Below are positions 1-5,305 of a stretch of DNA of 5,305 bases, piece by piece. Every line of letters begins with the position of its first letter. The first letter of the stretch is position 1. The position numbers and the translations under genes were made by a program. Origin of the DNA: Candidatus Latescibacterota bacterium (GTDB lineage: Bacteria; JAAXHH01; JACQVL01); the NCBI GenBank assembly GCA_016209865.1, contig JACQVL010000083.1:1-5305 (forward strand), written 5' to 3'. The notes beneath the pieces were generated by a model, which made no database searches, was not told where the DNA came from, and worked only from the letters and a program-made list of their open reading frames with translations.

Positions 1-1101
1 ACGTTGTATTCGATGACGATCATGTGGGAGACCTCCGAGGAGGCGTCCTCGAAGGTCATGTACTGGGAAACTCAGCGAGTCCATAGCGGATTGAACGGCC
101 GGTTCGAGACGGTTCAAGAGTCTGAGAGCACTGTGGAGGATGACACCCTGTGTACGATTCATGCGGTGACTCTCACCGGACTTCAACCGGATACGACGTA
201 CCATTACCGGGTGTCTTCCACAACCCGCCAGGGTGAGACGGTTGAGAGTGAGGAATACCCCCTGAAGACGGCAGTGGAGGAGCACACCCCGTTCTCCTTC
301 GCGGTGACGAGTGAGACGGGCGGGTACGGCGACGACGCGATCAACCGGCGGCTCTTCCCGCAGATCAGGCGCTCCAGGCCGGAATTCCTGCTGATGGTCG
401 GCGACGCGGTCGCGCGGGGTTCGGTGTACGACGACTGGGAGCGGTATTTCTTCGGACCGGCTAGAGAACTCCTGACCAGCACTCCGTTCTACCTGTGTCT
501 GGGCAACCACGAGGAGAACGCGTCCTGGTTCTACAGGTTCGTCGCCTACCCGGAACCCAAGAACTATTACGCCTTCAGCTACGGGAACGCCCACTTCATC
601 GGTCTGGACAGCACGGCGGTGATCGAGTACCAAGGCAGCATCCCTCACCTCATCGAGCGCGACGGCGGGTTCGCGCCGGGGTCGCCCCAGTACGAATTCC
701 TCGTGCGGGAGCTGCGCTCGTCCCAAACCGTCTGGAAGATCGTCTTCTTCCACTACCCGCCCTACGTCTCCGCCGACTACCAGGTCGATGAGATGCGGGC
801 GCTCTGTCCCATCCTGGAGGAATACGGGGTGGATGTCGTCTTCAACTCGCACACGATCGTCTACGAACGCAGTCACCCGATTCGGGGCGGAACAGTGGAC
901 AGGAAATCCGGGATCATCTACGTGGTCGCGGGGGGATCGGGGGCGATGCCCCAGTGGTTTCATCACAAGCGGGCCTGGCACACGGCCCATGCGGTGGCGG
1001 TGCCTCATTTCGTGCAGGTGACGATCGCCGGAGAGACGCTGGAACTGCGGGCGATCGACGATGAGGGACGGTTGTTCGACCTGATGACGTTGAATCGGTG
1101 A
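1..1101 (+). CDS. Purple acid phosphatase-like metallophosphoesterase, 5' end missing, one metal site degenerate
   Basis: This is the C-terminal part of a calcineurin-like phosphoesterase with an N-terminal fibronectin-III-like purple acid phosphatase (PAP) domain. The frame is open from base 1, and the protein starts inside the usual domain opening (SMTIMWET), so the true start and any signal peptide lie upstream. Residues are numbered from the TTG at base 4. The Fn3-like domain covers about 1-90 and ends near LQPDTTYHYRV; the phosphoesterase domain covers about 97-365. Visible blocks are VTSETGG (102-107), VGDAVARG (132-139), GNHE (167-170), FFHYPPY (248-254) and NSHTIVYER (281-289). In a standard PAP these would be GDxG, GDxxY, GNHE, an H-containing block and GHxH. 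Here Glu104, Ala137 and Ile285 replace the Asp, Tyr and second His that bind the first metal, whereas Asp134, Asn168, His250 and His283 are kept. PAP-family proteins are usually exported phosphomonoesterases; activity here is uncertain. The gene converges on the mmsA operon. Confidence 0.9.
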   Translation, partial: TLYSMTIMWETSEEASSKVMYWETQRVHSGLNGRFETVQESESTVEDDTLCTIHAVTLTGLQPDTTYHYRVSSTTRQGETVESEEYPLKTAVEEHTPFSFAVTSETGGYGDDAINRRLFPQIRRSRPEFLLMVGDAVARGSVYDDWERYFFGPARELLTSTPFYLCLGNHEENASWFYRFVAYPEPKNYYAFSYGNAHFIGLDSTAVIEYQGSIPHLIERDGGFAPGSPQYEFLVRELRSSQTVWKIVFFHYPPYVSADYQVDEMRALCPILEEYGVDVVFNSHTIVYERSHPIRGGTVDRKSGIIYVVAGGSGAMPQWFHHKRAWHTAHAVAVPHFVQVTIAGETLELRAIDDEGRLFDLMTLNR

Positions 1102-1193
1102 TGCGATGCGTCTGTCCACACACCGGCGAGGTCCGGGAGATTTCCGTAAACGACCTCGTTCGCGGGGTGCAGACGGCGGTGGATGAGGAATGA
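1101..1193 (+). CDS. Possible 30-residue ORF overlapping the phosphatase stop codon
   Basis: A short ORF starts at an ATG whose A is the last base of the preceding TGA stop (TGATG arrangement) and ends at TGA 1191-1193. It begins MRCVCPHTGEV and ends VQTAVDEE; it has two cysteines close to the N-terminus and an acidic C-terminus. I do not recognise it. In favour: the stop/start overlap permits translational coupling, and codon use is similar to the neighbouring gene. Against: there is no clear ribosome binding site in front, and the ORF is short enough to occur by chance. It could also be leftover 3' sequence of a longer gene. There is no sign that it continues the phosphatase through a frameshift, because that protein already ends at a natural-looking C-terminus. 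Confidence 0.3.
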   Translation: MRCVCPHTGEVREISVNDLVRGVQTAVDEE

Positions 1194-1206
1194 GCGGTGC
1201 TTCAGG

Positions 1207-1284
1207 GGGCAGATGGGCAGTAGGCAGGTAGTCAGTGGACGGGGGAATGGCTTCTACTGCCCACTGCCCATTGCCCATCTGCCC
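1207..1284. repeat. Imperfect inverted repeat made of TGCCC-type heptamers
   Basis: The left arm is 1207-1223 (GGGCAGATGGGCAGTAG). The right arm, 1254-1284, is its reverse complement with two additional 7-base units in the middle. Read on the + strand, the right arm is ACTGCCC, ACTGCCC, ATTGCCC and ATCTGCCC in tandem (1256-1284). All 17 left-arm bases can pair: 13 in the outer stem (1207-1219 with 1272-1284), or 9 in an alternative inner stem (1215-1223 with 1254-1262). The spacer is 30 bases. The element lies between two convergent genes, so it could act as a bidirectional terminator or RNA-stabilising hairpin, but it has no T-tract typical of an intrinsic terminator. It also resembles dispersed intergenic short repeats of the kind found in many environmental bacteria. 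Confidence 0.75.
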
Positions 1285-1314
1285 GGTGGAGAAAGGGAGG
1301 TGGGGGGAGTCCAT

Positions 1315-2781
1315 TCACCCCCACCGGCTCATCGTCACCTTCTGGCGGGTGTAGAACCACACCCCTTCCCGGCCTTGGATGTGCAGGTCGCCGAAGAACG
1401 ACCCGTTCCAGCCGGAGAACGGAAAGAACGCCATGGGCGCGGGAACTCCGACATTGATCCCGACCATCCCGGCGCTTACCCGATGCCGGAATTCCCGAGC
1501 CGCCCGCCCGCTGGTCGTGAACAGGACGGCCGCGTTCCCGTACCCGCTCCCGTTGCACGCTTCGATCGCCGCATCCAGGTCGTCCGTCCGGATGACGGAC
1601 AGCACCGGCCCGAAGATCTCGTCCCGAATGATCGTCATCTGAGTGCTCGCCCGGTCGAGGATCGTCGGGCCTAAGTAGAACCCGTTCGGCGCGGCCGGCA
1701 CCCGCACATCGCGGCCGTCGAGGAACAGCTCCGCCCCTTCCGACAAGCCCGCGTCGATGTACCCCTTCACTCGCTCTAAGTGTTGCTGCGTGACGAGCGG
1801 GCCCATCTGCGCCGCCGGGTCGCGGTCGGTCGGGCCGACGCGCAACTGCGCGACCGTGTCCCGCAGCAGTGGCAACACCCGGTCGCCCGCGTCCTGCACC
1901 GCGACGGCCACACTGCCCGCCATGCACCGCTCCCCGGCACACCCGAACGCCGACCCGATGAGGGCATCGACAGTAGCCGCCGGGTTCGCGTCGGACATGA
2001 TGATCATGTAATTCTTCGCCCCGCCCGCGGCCTGCACCCGCTTGCCGTGCGTGGTGGCGGTCTGGTAGACATGCCGGGCGACCGGGGTGGAGCCGACGAA
2101 GGAAACCGCCTTGACGCTCGGATGCGTGAGGAGCGCGTCGACCGCCTCCCGTCCGCCGTGGACAAGGTTCATCACACCGGGCGGGAGTCTGGCTTCGTGC
2201 AGCAGTTCGACCAGCCGTATGGCGGTCAGCGGCACCTTCTCGGACGGCTTCAGGACGAACGTATTTCCGCAGGCAATCGCCAGAGGGAACATCCACATCG
2301 GCACCATCGCCGGGAAGTTGAACGGGGTGATCCCGGCGCAGACGCCGAGCGGCTGGCGGATGGCATCACAATCGATCCCCGGCGCGATCTGTTCGAGGGA
2401 TTCCCCCATCAAGAGGGACGGGATGCCGCACGCGAACTCGACCACCTCGATTCCGCGTCGCACCGACCCTTTCGCCTCGGCGAGCGTCTTGCCATGCTCC
2501 CGCGTCACCAGCCGGGCGAGGTCATCGAAGTGCGTTTCGAGCAGATGGACGTACCGGAACATCACCCGCGCCCGGTCGACCGGCGGGGTCTCCGCCCAGC
2601 CGGGGAAAGCTGCCTCAGCCGCTTTCACCGCCCTCTCGATGTCGTCTGCCCCGCAGAGCGGCGTCCGTGCGATGACTGTGCCGTCTGATGGGTTGTATAC
2701 CGGCTCGGACGTGGACGCGCTCGACGGGCCCCATTCCCCGTCGACGAATAAGGGACAGAGTTCTGAACGAATTGTTGGCAT
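1315..2781 (-). CDS. mmsA: CoA-acylating methylmalonate-semialdehyde dehydrogenase
   Basis: This cytosolic aldehyde dehydrogenase superfamily enzyme converts methylmalonate semialdehyde (or malonate semialdehyde) plus CoA and NAD+ to propionyl-CoA (or acetyl-CoA), with loss of CO2. It is 488 residues, full family length. Diagnostic segments are GITPFNFPAMVPMWMFPLA (150-168, with Asn155), VLKPSE (176-181, Lys178 for NAD), FVGSTPVARHVY (228-239), AAGGAKNYMIIMSDANP (251-267), GCAGERCMAGS (280-290, nucleophile Cys286) and DEIFGP (387-392). The tail NVGVPAPMAFFPFSGW followed by FFGDLH and FYTRQKVT is typical of MmsA/IolA. The general-base Glu of hydrolytic ALDHs is absent from the GGAKN segment, as expected for this CoA-dependent family. 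Arg285 next to the nucleophile is also typical. The start ATG has GAGAGG (2788-2793) six bases upstream. It is the last gene of the operon, 16 bases after phyH-C. The same enzyme serves valine and inositol breakdown, so iolA is an equally valid name. Confidence 0.95.
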   Translation of the reverse strand: MPTIRSELCPLFVDGEWGPSSASTSEPVYNPSDGTVIARTPLCGADDIERAVKAAEAAFPGWAETPPVDRARVMFRYVHLLETHFDDLARLVTREHGKTLAEAKGSVRRGIEVVEFACGIPSLLMGESLEQIAPGIDCDAIRQPLGVCAGITPFNFPAMVPMWMFPLAIACGNTFVLKPSEKVPLTAIRLVELLHEARLPPGVMNLVHGGREAVDALLTHPSVKAVSFVGSTPVARHVYQTATTHGKRVQAAGGAKNYMIIMSDANPAATVDALIGSAFGCAGERCMAGSVAVAVQDAGDRVLPLLRDTVAQLRVGPTDRDPAAQMGPLVTQQHLERVKGYIDAGLSEGAELFLDGRDVRVPAAPNGFYLGPTILDRASTQMTIIRDEIFGPVLSVIRTDDLDAAIEACNGSGYGNAAVLFTTSGRAAREFRHRVSAGMVGINVGVPAPMAFFPFSGWNGSFFGDLHIQGREGVWFYTRQKVTMSRWG

Positions 2782-2797
2782 ACTGAGCCTCTCTTCT

Positions 2798-3541
2798 CTA
2801 CCGTCCGACCTGCTTGTCCTCCTCCATCCGGCTGATGTACGGCGGTCTCAGAATTTTCTTCTGGCGTTCGGTATAGTCGAACGCGCCGGCATCGTAGTAC
2901 GTGCCCCACCACGCCAGATAGCTGGGAGAGTATTTATAGAACAGCGTCCGGCGCTGCGTCGGGGCGGTCCAGGCCAGCGTCCCGTGCCGGAGGGCTTCGG
3001 TGAACAGGATGACATCCCCGGCCCGGCAGGGCACCTGCTGGACACAGTCGGACGGGGTGCCCACGCACGTGAGGCCCGCGGGCGGGGAGAAGCTGCTCTT
3101 GTGACTGCCCGGGATGCAGCAGAACCCCCCGGTTCCGGGCGGGACATCCCGCAGCGCCCAGACCAGGGCGATCAGGCCGCATCGGATTCGCCCATCCTGG
3201 GCGTCATAATAGTACATCGTACTGTGGGGCGTCCCGTTGCAGTGGAGTTCCCCGGCCCCGTCCGAGATCATGTGCTCAGCGTACTCGTGATCGAGCCGGA
3301 AGCCCACATCCAGAACCTCCTCAAGATACGGGACGACGGCCGGATGGTCGATCAAATCCCGGTACGGCTTGCCCCAGTGCAACAGCGGCATGTACCGGCC
3401 CCGGGGCGTGTTCGGGTCGGGCAGCTTCGCCTGCTGCTCGTCGAACAGCGCGTTGAGCGCCGCCAATTCTTCCTGGTTGAGGGCGCTCTGAATGACGAGA
3501 TATCCGTGAATGTCGAGCAGGTAGCGTTCCATTTCAGTCAT
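2798..3541 (-). CDS. PhyH-family dioxygenase homologue C, with His-x-Asn in place of His-x-Asp
   Basis: This 247-residue member of the phytanoyl-CoA dioxygenase (PhyH) family has a double-stranded beta-helix fold, presumably cytosolic. Visible family blocks are HGYLVI (12-17), ELHCNGTP (98-105), WALRDVPPGTGGFCCIPGSHKS (128-149), AGDVILFTEALRHGTLAWT (174-192) and RRTLFYKYSP (197-206). His186 is the distal iron ligand, and Arg197 or Arg198 should bind the 2-oxoglutarate carboxylate. The proximal motif is odd. His100 sits where PhyH-B has His102, about the same distance after a shared FRL tripeptide, but two residues on there is Asn102 (AAC), not Asp. Seven cysteines (101, 121, 141, 142, 159, 166, 172) are many for the size. 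The start at 3541 is supported by AAGGAG (3549-3554) seven bases upstream; Met4 is a less likely start. The gene lies 12 bases after phyH-B and 16 bases before mmsA. The substrate is unknown. Confidence 0.9.
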   Translation of the reverse strand: MTEMERYLLDIHGYLVIQSALNQEELAALNALFDEQQAKLPDPNTPRGRYMPLLHWGKPYRDLIDHPAVVPYLEEVLDVGFRLDHEYAEHMISDGAGELHCNGTPHSTMYYYDAQDGRIRCGLIALVWALRDVPPGTGGFCCIPGSHKSSFSPPAGLTCVGTPSDCVQQVPCRAGDVILFTEALRHGTLAWTAPTQRRTLFYKYSPSYLAWWGTYYDAGAFDYTERQKKILRPPYISRMEEDKQVGR

Positions 3542-3548
3542 GTCGGTG

Positions 3549-3554
3549 CTCCTT
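3549..3554 (-). promoter_or_regulatory. Ribosome binding site of phyH-C overlapping the phyH-B stop codon
   Basis: On the - strand the phyH-B stop TGA runs directly into AAGGAG, sharing one base (TGAAGGAG), followed by seven bases and the phyH-C ATG. This fixes the phyH-C start. It also suggests that ribosomes finishing phyH-B can reload on phyH-C, keeping the two proteins in similar amounts. Confidence 0.8.
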
Positions 3555-4261
3555 CAGTCGTTCACCACCTTGTGCGCCACCAATCGCTGGACGAGTGGAG
3601 GCAGCCGGTCGTACACGCGACGCGGCATCGTTTGCCAGTTGCCGGCGTTCGGGTCCATCCAGGCGGCAAAATACGGGACGGACACGCCGAGGCGGTGCTG
3701 GTCGCGGGTTGTGTTCGCGCCGCCACAGTGCCACAGCCCGCCGTGGAAGATGACGATCGAGCCGCGCGGGGCTTCGGCTGCCACCAGATGGTTGTAGGCG
3801 ACACCCGGACGCGGCCGGCGACGTGTGTGGTGGCTAAAGGGCATCAGCAGAGTCGCCCCGATTTCACGCGTGAAATCGGTCAACATCCAGATGGAATTCA
3901 GGACGAAGCAGACATCCGGTAATGGCTGGGGAAACCGGCCGAGGGGAACATCGGCGTGCAGGGATTGAGCCGGCGCGCCAGGCTTGAGCCAGCGAGCGCC
4001 GACTTCGGCGAGTCGAAACCCCTCGCCCAGCGTGTGACGCGCCAGCTCAAGAAAGGCCGGGTTGGTGACCAGGGGGATGAAGATGTCGTCATAGTCGAGC
4101 AACGCCTGTAATCCCTGATCGAGCCTGTCTGCATCCGGTTGTTGGTTCATGATCTCGACCAATCGAGTGGCCATCCGGTCGATCTCGTCGGCCGGAAGCT
4201 GGTTCTCCAGGATGACGAACCCGTATTCATCGAGTTCGAGCTTGAGTTGCTCGATATCCAT
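3554..4261 (-). CDS. PhyH-family Fe(II)/2-oxoglutarate dioxygenase B, canonical iron site
   Basis: This 235-residue PhyH-family oxygenase would couple decarboxylation of 2-oxoglutarate to hydroxylation of an unknown substrate. The N-terminal helix and strand (LELDEYGFVILENQL, 8-22) are typical. The iron triad is complete: His102 and Asp104 in SLHADVP, and His178 in FHGGLWHCGG. Arg190, twelve residues after His178, is the likely 2-oxoglutarate anchor, in DQHRLGVSVPYF. The segment GATLLMPFSHHTRRR (135-149) takes the place of the usual PGSHK loop and is followed by a basic stretch. The protein is shorter than PhyH-A. It is the middle of three adjacent PhyH genes, 21 bases after phyH-A. The start at 4261 has AGGGGG (4268-4273) six bases upstream. 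It is clearly diverged from both neighbours outside the motif blocks, so a different substrate is likely. Confidence 0.92.
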   Translation of the reverse strand: MDIEQLKLELDEYGFVILENQLPADEIDRMATRLVEIMNQQPDADRLDQGLQALLDYDDIFIPLVTNPAFLELARHTLGEGFRLAEVGARWLKPGAPAQSLHADVPLGRFPQPLPDVCFVLNSIWMLTDFTREIGATLLMPFSHHTRRRPRPGVAYNHLVAAEAPRGSIVIFHGGLWHCGGANTTRDQHRLGVSVPYFAAWMDPNAGNWQTMPRRVYDRLPPLVQRLVAHKVVND

Positions 4262-4282
4262 GCCTGTCCCCCTGTGGTCTTC

Positions 4283-5125
4283 TTAACCGCGCGACGGCTC
4301 CGGCCGTTCCATCCGGTACTTTTGCGCGAGCTCGCCCAAGTGGGCGTCGTTGTCCCTGATCTGCTGGAGGTGCACCCACCGCTCTGGGGTGGCAGTCCGG
4401 ATCATCGTCTCCCCGTGGATCCGGTCCACCCAGAACCGCGCCTCATGGCCGAGCTTGGTGCGCAACTCCTCCAACCGATCATCAGGATACCGGCGACAGA
4501 AGTTCATCGTGTACATCCGCCGGCGCGGCGCCCCGCCGAACGCCGCGTGTTTGAGGTTGTGATTGAACATGACGATATCGCCGGGAACCGTCTCCAACGC
4601 CACGCACGGCGCCTGATGACCGGGGATTCCCCAGAGTTCTCCGCTCTTCCGGATCTCGCGCTCGACGCGGTCAGCAAACGCATCCCCGACTTTGTGACTG
4701 CCCGGGATCACCCGGAGCGCTCCGGTCTCGCGCGTCAGCGGGTCGAGGTAGAACGCGATCTTGATGCTCATCGGCCGGTTCCCGTCGTAGCCGTCGGAGT
4801 GCCAGCCGGTGTCCCCGGCGTAGTAATTCCCATCCCCGCTCGTATAGTTGAAATCATCCCCGCAGATGCTGGCCGCGATGTCGTGGATGCGCGGGTCGTC
4901 TAACAGACTGCTGAGGTACTCGTTCTGATCGGGGAACGGGAAGATACATGAACGCTGCTTCCCGTCGTGAGTCTTCCCGTGGTGTCCCCCGCCGTGCGCC
5001 GCCCAGATCGCCTCGAACTCCTCGATGATGCGATCGGCGCAATCCGCTAAGAGGCCGGGGAAGAAAAGATACCCGAACGTGTCAAAAAACGCGTGTTGCT
5101 GATCGGTCAGGCGAGTAGATGACAT
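4283..5125 (-). CDS. PhyH-family Fe(II)/2-oxoglutarate dioxygenase A, canonical iron site
   Basis: This 280-residue PhyH-family oxygenase has a full active site. His109 and Asp111 (GWHSDGYDG, 107-115) and His193 (FNHNLKHAAFGG, 187-198) form the iron triad, and Arg203 in the PRRRMYTMNF stretch is the probable 2-oxoglutarate ligand. Other typical blocks are HAFFDTFGYLFFPGLL (11-26), IKIAFYLDPLTRETGALRVI (121-140), PGSHKVGD (141-148) and VPGDIVMFNHN (180-190). A His/Gly-rich stretch, HGGGHHGKTHDG, sits at 44-55. The C-terminal third (about 210-280) is charged and helical in character, beyond the core fold. The start at 5125 has AAGGAG (5134-5139) eight bases upstream. It is the first complete gene of the operon seen here, 71 bases after an upstream partial gene. 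The family includes hydroxylases of lipids, phosphonates and amino acids, so the substrate cannot be assigned. Confidence 0.93.
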   Translation of the reverse strand: MSSTRLTDQQHAFFDTFGYLFFPGLLADCADRIIEEFEAIWAAHGGGHHGKTHDGKQRSCIFPFPDQNEYLSSLLDDPRIHDIAASICGDDFNYTSGDGNYYAGDTGWHSDGYDGNRPMSIKIAFYLDPLTRETGALRVIPGSHKVGDAFADRVEREIRKSGELWGIPGHQAPCVALETVPGDIVMFNHNLKHAAFGGAPRRRMYTMNFCRRYPDDRLEELRTKLGHEARFWVDRIHGETMIRTATPERWVHLQQIRDNDAHLGELAQKYRMERPEPSRG

Positions 5126-5148
5126 ACGGAGCTCTCCTTCTGATCAAG

Positions 5149-5188
5149 AGCGAGACGACGAAAGGGGCCCCTCTCGCCCTTTCTCGCT
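5149..5188. repeat. Short inverted repeat ahead of phyH-A
   Basis: AGCGAG (5149-5154) pairs with CTCGCT (5183-5188), and AAAGGG (5161-5166) pairs with CCCTTT (5177-5182). This makes a two-part stem with a six-base bulge on one side and a ten-base loop. An overlapping perfect palindrome, AGGGGCCCCT, is at 5163-5172. On the - strand it lies in the leader between the upstream partial gene and phyH-A, about 25 bases before the phyH-A ATG. It could be a processing or attenuating hairpin, or an operator, but I see no T-run after it on the - strand. No convincing -35/-10 promoter is visible in this 71-base gap. Confidence 0.4.
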
Positions 5189-5192
5189 TTTA

Positions 5193-5213
5193 CTCGTCAC
5201 TTGTCACTCGTCA
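5193..5213. repeat. Three tandem heptamers (CTCGTCA, CTTGTCA, CTCGTCA)
   Basis: Three adjacent seven-base units differ at one position only. On the - strand they read TGACGAG, TGACAAG, TGACGAG. They fall at the 3' end of the partial - strand gene and supply its last codons and its TGA stop. They look like short intergenic tandem repeats rather than a protein-coding or CRISPR structure. Confidence 0.7.
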
Positions 5214-5305
5214 CTTTTCTTTCCAGTTTCTCTTTTCCAACCAGTTCCGGTTTCCCGGTTTTCGCCGACGCGTTCGCGGCCTCGGTCAACTGAGCGACTC
5301 GGAGG
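5197..5305 (-). CDS. C-terminal 35 codons of an upstream gene, possibly a Gfo/Idh/MocA-type oxidoreductase
   Basis: Reading the - strand from base 5304 gives an open frame that starts LRVAQLTEAANASAKTGKP and ends at TGA 5197-5199. The amphipathic helix followed by S-A-x-T-G-K-P is the way many Gfo/Idh/MocA NAD(P)-dependent oxidoreductases end, in the segment that normally reads close to 'SAxTGKPV'. The other two - strand frames look less protein-like: one stops almost at once and the other is Arg/Gly/Glu-rich. After the GKP segment comes a basic tail (VGKEKLERKVTSDK), whose final codons lie in the heptamer repeat. It is co-directional with phyH-A and 71 bases away, so it may be the first visible gene of the operon. 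Coding status is fairly likely; the family guess rests on about 20 residues. Confidence 0.5.
   Translation of the reverse strand, partial: LRVAQLTEAANASAKTGKPELVGKEKLERKVTSDK

Follow-up and report, generated by a model that had tools for sequence, protein, structure and literature searches.

Background

Secretion is typical of purple acid phosphatases (PAPs). GAP50 and altered-site proteins of the calcineurin fold, such as Vps29, serve as scaffolds. The kidney bean PAP binds two metals, of which Fe(III) is liganded by Asp135, Tyr167, His325 and the bridging Asp164, and Zn(II) by the same Asp164 together with Asn201, His286 and His323; in PAPs the nucleophile is a bridging hydroxide between the two metals, His202 binds a phosphate mimic, and His295 is not invariant among PAPs (PMC2267794). 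We refer to the Fe and Zn sites as metal 1 and metal 2, respectively.

The protein described here represents a clade that shares with the plant PAPs (kidney bean PAP, 1kbp/2qfp/4dhl; wheat phytase, 6git; lupin PPD1, 3zk4) the combination of FnIII and metallophosphoesterase folds, the metal-2 ligands, the equivalent of His202 and the YERS motif, but differs from them in having Glu, a variable residue and Ile for the metal-1 Asp, Tyr and His, in having Tyr and Gln or Glu for His295 and His296, and in the probable absence of a signal peptide from nearly all of its members. Among bacterial PAP-like proteins, those that carry GD[NTS]-R and GHxH motifs (e.g., L013, L072, L111 and L116) have the same two-domain layout, show 37-43% identity and also mostly lack the Tyr, but they keep the metal-1 Asp and His and are without the SETGG insertion and SHTI motif of the clade. 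The fold and superfamily are already known; the clade is a subfamily of the PAP fold, and to annotate it as purple acid phosphatase would be a mistake, one that general databases invite by labelling its members just "Metallophos". No description of the clade was found in the literature searched, the coverage of which was incomplete.

The PAP-like gene of the window

The window is a contig stretch of 5,305 nucleotides (positions 1-5305) from a 3.75 Mb metagenome-assembled genome of a small phylum, from which 16 genomes were searched. Its first gene encodes the two-domain architecture of the PAP fold, Pur_ac_phosph_N plus Metallophos (Table 1), and the true N-terminus of the product lies beyond the contig edge, homologues starting ~14 residues earlier, at MLSIVKGPYLQWPT. 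The original prediction had the correct reading frame and nucleotide coordinates, with residue numbers one too low since its count began with the TTG codon at nt 4. We number from nt 1, which gives E105, D135, A138, N169, H251, H284 and I286 for the residues of main interest, and a codon check of the ORF returned Glu at 313-315 and Ile at 856-858. Long antisense ORFs over the gene (e.g., 1-1314, minus strand), which recur in 25 loci, are taken to be shadow ORFs because they sit on the reverse of conserved codons. NCBIfam has no family for the protein, and searches of IMG/VR with two peptide patterns detected no viral homologues.

Table 1. Features of the PAP-like gene in the window, with residues numbered from nt 1
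Feature	Positions	Strand	Residues and ligand assignment	Basis or remark
PAP-fold protein	1..1101	+	366 residues seen	5' end cut by contig edge
N-terminal FnIII-like domain, Pur_ac_phosph_N (PF16656)	10..270	+	4-90	E 7.2e-12
Metallophos domain (PF00149)	295..861	+	99-287	E 1.9e-20
SETGG motif	310..324	+	104-108; E105 (313-315) in place of the metal-1 Asp of GDxG	alignment, clade columns
GDAVA motif	400..414	+	134-138; D135 (403-405), shared/bridging Asp, kept; A138 (412-414) at the variable Tyr position	alignment
GNHE motif	502..513	+	168-171; N169 (505-507), metal-2 ligand; H170 (508-510), His202 equivalent	invariant
H251	751..753	+	metal-2 His, His286 equivalent	36/36
Y260-Q261	778..783	+	clade-typical, at the place of His295/His296	Y 34/36; Q 29/36 or E 7/36
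SHTI motif, for GHxH	847..858	+	283-286; H284 (850-852) kept; I286 (856-858) for metal-1 His325	S, H, T and I each 36/36
W326-H327-T328	976..984	+	clade-typical; H327 at 979-981	H 33/34

Mapping of the metal ligands

An AlphaFold2 model of the protein, made with 15 family members (mean pLDDT 79.0, pTM 0.83), superposes on kidney bean PAP with Z 31.0-31.2 and an rmsd of 2.9 over 322 residues, and we therefore assign the window protein to the PAP fold. Bacillus PhoD (2yeq), whose fold is related, aligned over model residues 1-366; it is extra-cytoplasmic and contains one Fe and two Ca (PMC4223295), both probable differences from the clade. The ligands were mapped by a phmmer pairwise alignment with the solved kidney bean structure (2qfp/4dhl; E 1e-11), which covers all five motifs and pairs SETGG with GDLG, GDAVA with GDLSY, GNHE with GNHE, FHYPPY with MHSPLY and SHTIVYERS with GHVHAYERS. 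Glu105, Ala138 and Ile286 fall at the Fe-only positions Asp135, Tyr167 and His325, while D135, N169, H251 and H284 stand for Asp164, Asn201, His286 and His323, such that four of the seven metal ligands are retained and the three specific to metal 1 are Glu, Ala and Ile. His202, too, has its counterpart (His170), and the phosphate-binding His295 and His296 are replaced by Tyr260 and Gln261. This alignment upholds the assignment that had originally been made by motif. With no Tyr at the ligand position, a purple colour is not to be expected of the protein.

Conservation and single origin of the replacements

The clade as we define it has 37 distinct members in four phyla, which have in common SETGG with its Glu, SHTI, an intact metal-2 set and a single origin; homologues in it show 49-71% identity, and the 34 nearest relatives outside it served as the comparison. 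Glu105 is present in 37/37 members and Ile286 in 36/36, as are the neighbouring Ser283 and Thr285, and D135, N169, H170, H251 and H284 are invariant in the 36-37 sequences available for each, those of named Paenibacillus isolates included; at S104 a single member has Gly. Outside the clade the metal-1 Asp occurs in all 34 relatives and the metal-1 His in 31. Since just 59 of the 361 well-filled columns are invariant in the clade, and dN/dS is ~0.1, the conservation of E105 and I286 in these alignments is not a matter of chance. Close homologues share the Glu and the Ile without exception, as had been asked of a trait fixed in a clade, and none with the standard metal-1 residues was found among them. 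The proposal of a one-sided loss, with metal 2 whole and metal 1 given up, is thus borne out by the alignment and the conservation together.

The original prediction went further in counting all three metal-1 ligands as lost. Replacement of the Asp and the His does characterize the clade; the loss of the Tyr is older and unspecific, inasmuch as only 5 of the 34 outside relatives have Tyr there, most bacterial relatives lack it and retain both Asp and His, and within the clade the site varies freely (N, D, S, H, Q, A, C, R or G). In a tree computed with the trait columns masked, the Glu/Ile sequences occupy one side of one branch with a support of 100, and, because Glu and Ile are fixed on that side and Asp and His prevail on the other, the sequences indicate that two ligands, not three, were changed at the base of the clade, where they were lost once and the replacements then fixed.

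The three outside relatives without the His (L106, L112 and L113) form a separate PAP-like branch with the motif NAHAT[RI]YERF, in which the second His of GHxH is Thr. The two groups have in common the absence of that His, but the AHAT group retains the metal-1 Asp, and its position on a branch of its own makes this an independent His loss. In the FnIII-like domain, residue 28 (nt 82-84) is His in 36/37 clade members and in 0/27 of the outside sequences.

That the altered site belongs to a decaying gene or is a sequencing artefact is barely credible. One Paenibacillus copy (L052/L097) is indeed broken, being truncated and carrying two TGA stops, but as an explanation for the clade this reading is ruled out by the recurrence of identical residues in dozens of assemblies obtained independently, some of them from isolates, and by strong purifying selection, with dN/dS of 0.06-0.16 between close pairs. 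Selection rather than decay had been surmised from the sparing of one complete site, and the invariant Glu and Ile agree with that surmise. What the sequences point to instead is an enzyme with one metal, or a binding protein, of a kind yet to be characterised.

Members of the clade were found in 4 of the 16 genomes of the window's own phylum (its own included), in 8 of 64, judged by motifs, from the phylum of a Latescibacterota-labelled genome, in 2 of 251 from the phylum of an Armatimonadetes-labelled genome, and in 22 of 394, with a truncated copy among the 22, from the family of Paenibacillus pinihumi. At E <= 1e-75, no homologue was detected in 397 other Bacillota genomes sampled, and a further 384 broadly sampled genomes gave none beyond the window's own phylum.

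Candidate replacement ligands at metal 1

It is conceivable, if rather unlikely, that the protein is still a two-metal enzyme with a rebuilt metal-1 site, in which Glu105 is a ligand and the places of the His and the Tyr are taken by H327, N115 or other residues specific to the clade, giving an unusual hetero-dinuclear centre. E105 is acidic and invariant, H327 is typical of the clade, N115 is present in 36/37 members at a position where outside relatives often have His, and PhoD, with its related fold, provides an instance of a different metal set (PMC4223295). Against a rebuilt site, the sole strictly conserved substitution for the His is Ile, which cannot bind metals, and no precedent was seen among the outside sequences sampled.

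The C-terminal His residues that had been suggested to fill in fared unequally. Those at H321 and H322 (previously counted as 320 and 321) are not conserved, with Leu/Pro in Paenibacillus, and were rejected as replacement ligands; H327 (previously 326) is conserved and could still fill in. It is the only conserved C-terminal candidate and a possible ligand, although evidently not an obligatory one, given that L095 has Phe there and yet retains both Glu and Ile. The model loops 254-260, 285-292 and 313-333, which line the active site by homology, have pLDDT under 50. As for residue 115 (nt 343-345), His is found at this position in 16 of the 34 outside relatives, and it is possible that the residue contacts metal or substrate in Tyr-less bacterial PAP-like proteins generally.

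Cellular location and associated genes

In most members of the clade an in-frame stop precedes PYLQ by just ~8-35 codons and hydrophobic segments are absent, so that a signal peptide would not fit and the proteins are probably cytosolic. An exception is L110, which has a signal-like N-terminus.

Two kinds of gene association were noted. In a fusion seen once, in a member of the Paenibacillaceae (L156:5740-8193, plus strand), a UDPGP nucleotidyltransferase domain (PF01704, E 9.2e-43) precedes the PAP-like protein, which keeps the Glu and the Ile. Directly upstream and on the same strand, a PHP-type gene is present in 6 of the 13 non-Paenibacillus loci (L131, L133, L134, L135, L125 and L126); these neighbours belong to two divergent subfamilies, and the four of the six that were scanned all pass the NCBIfam cut-off for CehA/McbA metallohydrolases. 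The Paenibacillus loci showed no conserved operon and no neighbour that recurs beyond close relatives.

A possible one-metal reaction

The reading that we favour, at a probability of about 45%, is that the clade consists of cytosolic PAP-fold metalloproteins with a complete metal-2 site, which have given up the canonical metal-1 site and might still function as one-metal hydrolases with Glu105 as the base. The metal at site 2, probably Zn, Mn or Fe(II), would hold both the water and the substrate; Glu105, which is one methylene longer than Asp, would point into the vacated metal-1 space and act as general base in lieu of the second metal, and Ile286 would pack what remains of that space. A remodelled pocket (Y252, Y260, Q/E261, T285, W319 and W326-H327-T328) would then be selective for a small substrate in the cytosol, which might be a sugar in phosphorylated or nucleotide-linked form. 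The UDPGP-type fusion and the CehA/McbA-type neighbours count in favour of such a hydrolase, although the neighbours are not universal and the fusion is a single case.

Hydrolysis with one metal is what we infer from these features, and the clade might alternatively bind a phosphorylated ligand or partner without turnover, metal 2 holding a single structural or ligand-binding metal. We regard such a pseudo-phosphatase as unlikely, albeit less so than a rebuilt metal-1 site. In its favour are the inert Ile in all 36 sequences and the replaced equivalents of His295 and His296, as well as the use by PAPs of a hydroxide bridged between two metals as nucleophile (PMC2267794). The structural matches of the model include a PAP-fold scaffold, Plasmodium GAP50 (3tgh, Z 22.1), and a precedent exists in further proteins of the calcineurin fold whose sites are degraded. 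GAP50 and Vps29 share the catalytic-domain fold of the clade, but in the clade metal 2 is fully kept: all of its ligands, together with His170, are invariant across ~50% sequence divergence, for which catalysis is an easier explanation than binding alone, and the acidic side chain at metal 1 has been fixed as Glu with no drift. The Tyr and Gln/Glu at the His295 and His296 places fit a loss of phosphatase activity as well.

More doubtful than the favoured one-metal hydrolase, if a shade more credible than binding without turnover, is a fuller scenario in which a binuclear phosphatase scaffold was turned once into a mononuclear hydrolase, with an invariant Glu base for the lost metal and a new cytosolic, possibly nucleotide-sugar-related substrate. 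The clade amounts to a clean natural experiment on whether a phosphatase of the two-metal kind can function with just one, as it combines a fixed replacement of single origin with standard-ligand relatives at ~40% identity and culturable Paenibacillus members.

Other genes of the window

The neighbours of the PAP-like gene in the window are a methylmalonate-semialdehyde dehydrogenase gene and, on the other strand, three PhyH-like genes. The PhyH-like protein encoded at 2798-3541 (minus strand) has HCN at the HxD position of Fe/2-oxoglutarate enzymes, and in its homologues (L162-L173) the triplet is HIN at 67-68% identity and HGG at 38-44%, the distal His being retained. Halogenases of the Fe/2-oxoglutarate type likewise lack a carboxylate ligand. 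In the phylum of genome G097 the homologous family is abundant, with members in 46 of 64 genomes and up to 21 copies each, and the two adjoining PhyH genes of the window retain HxD, as HAD and HSD.
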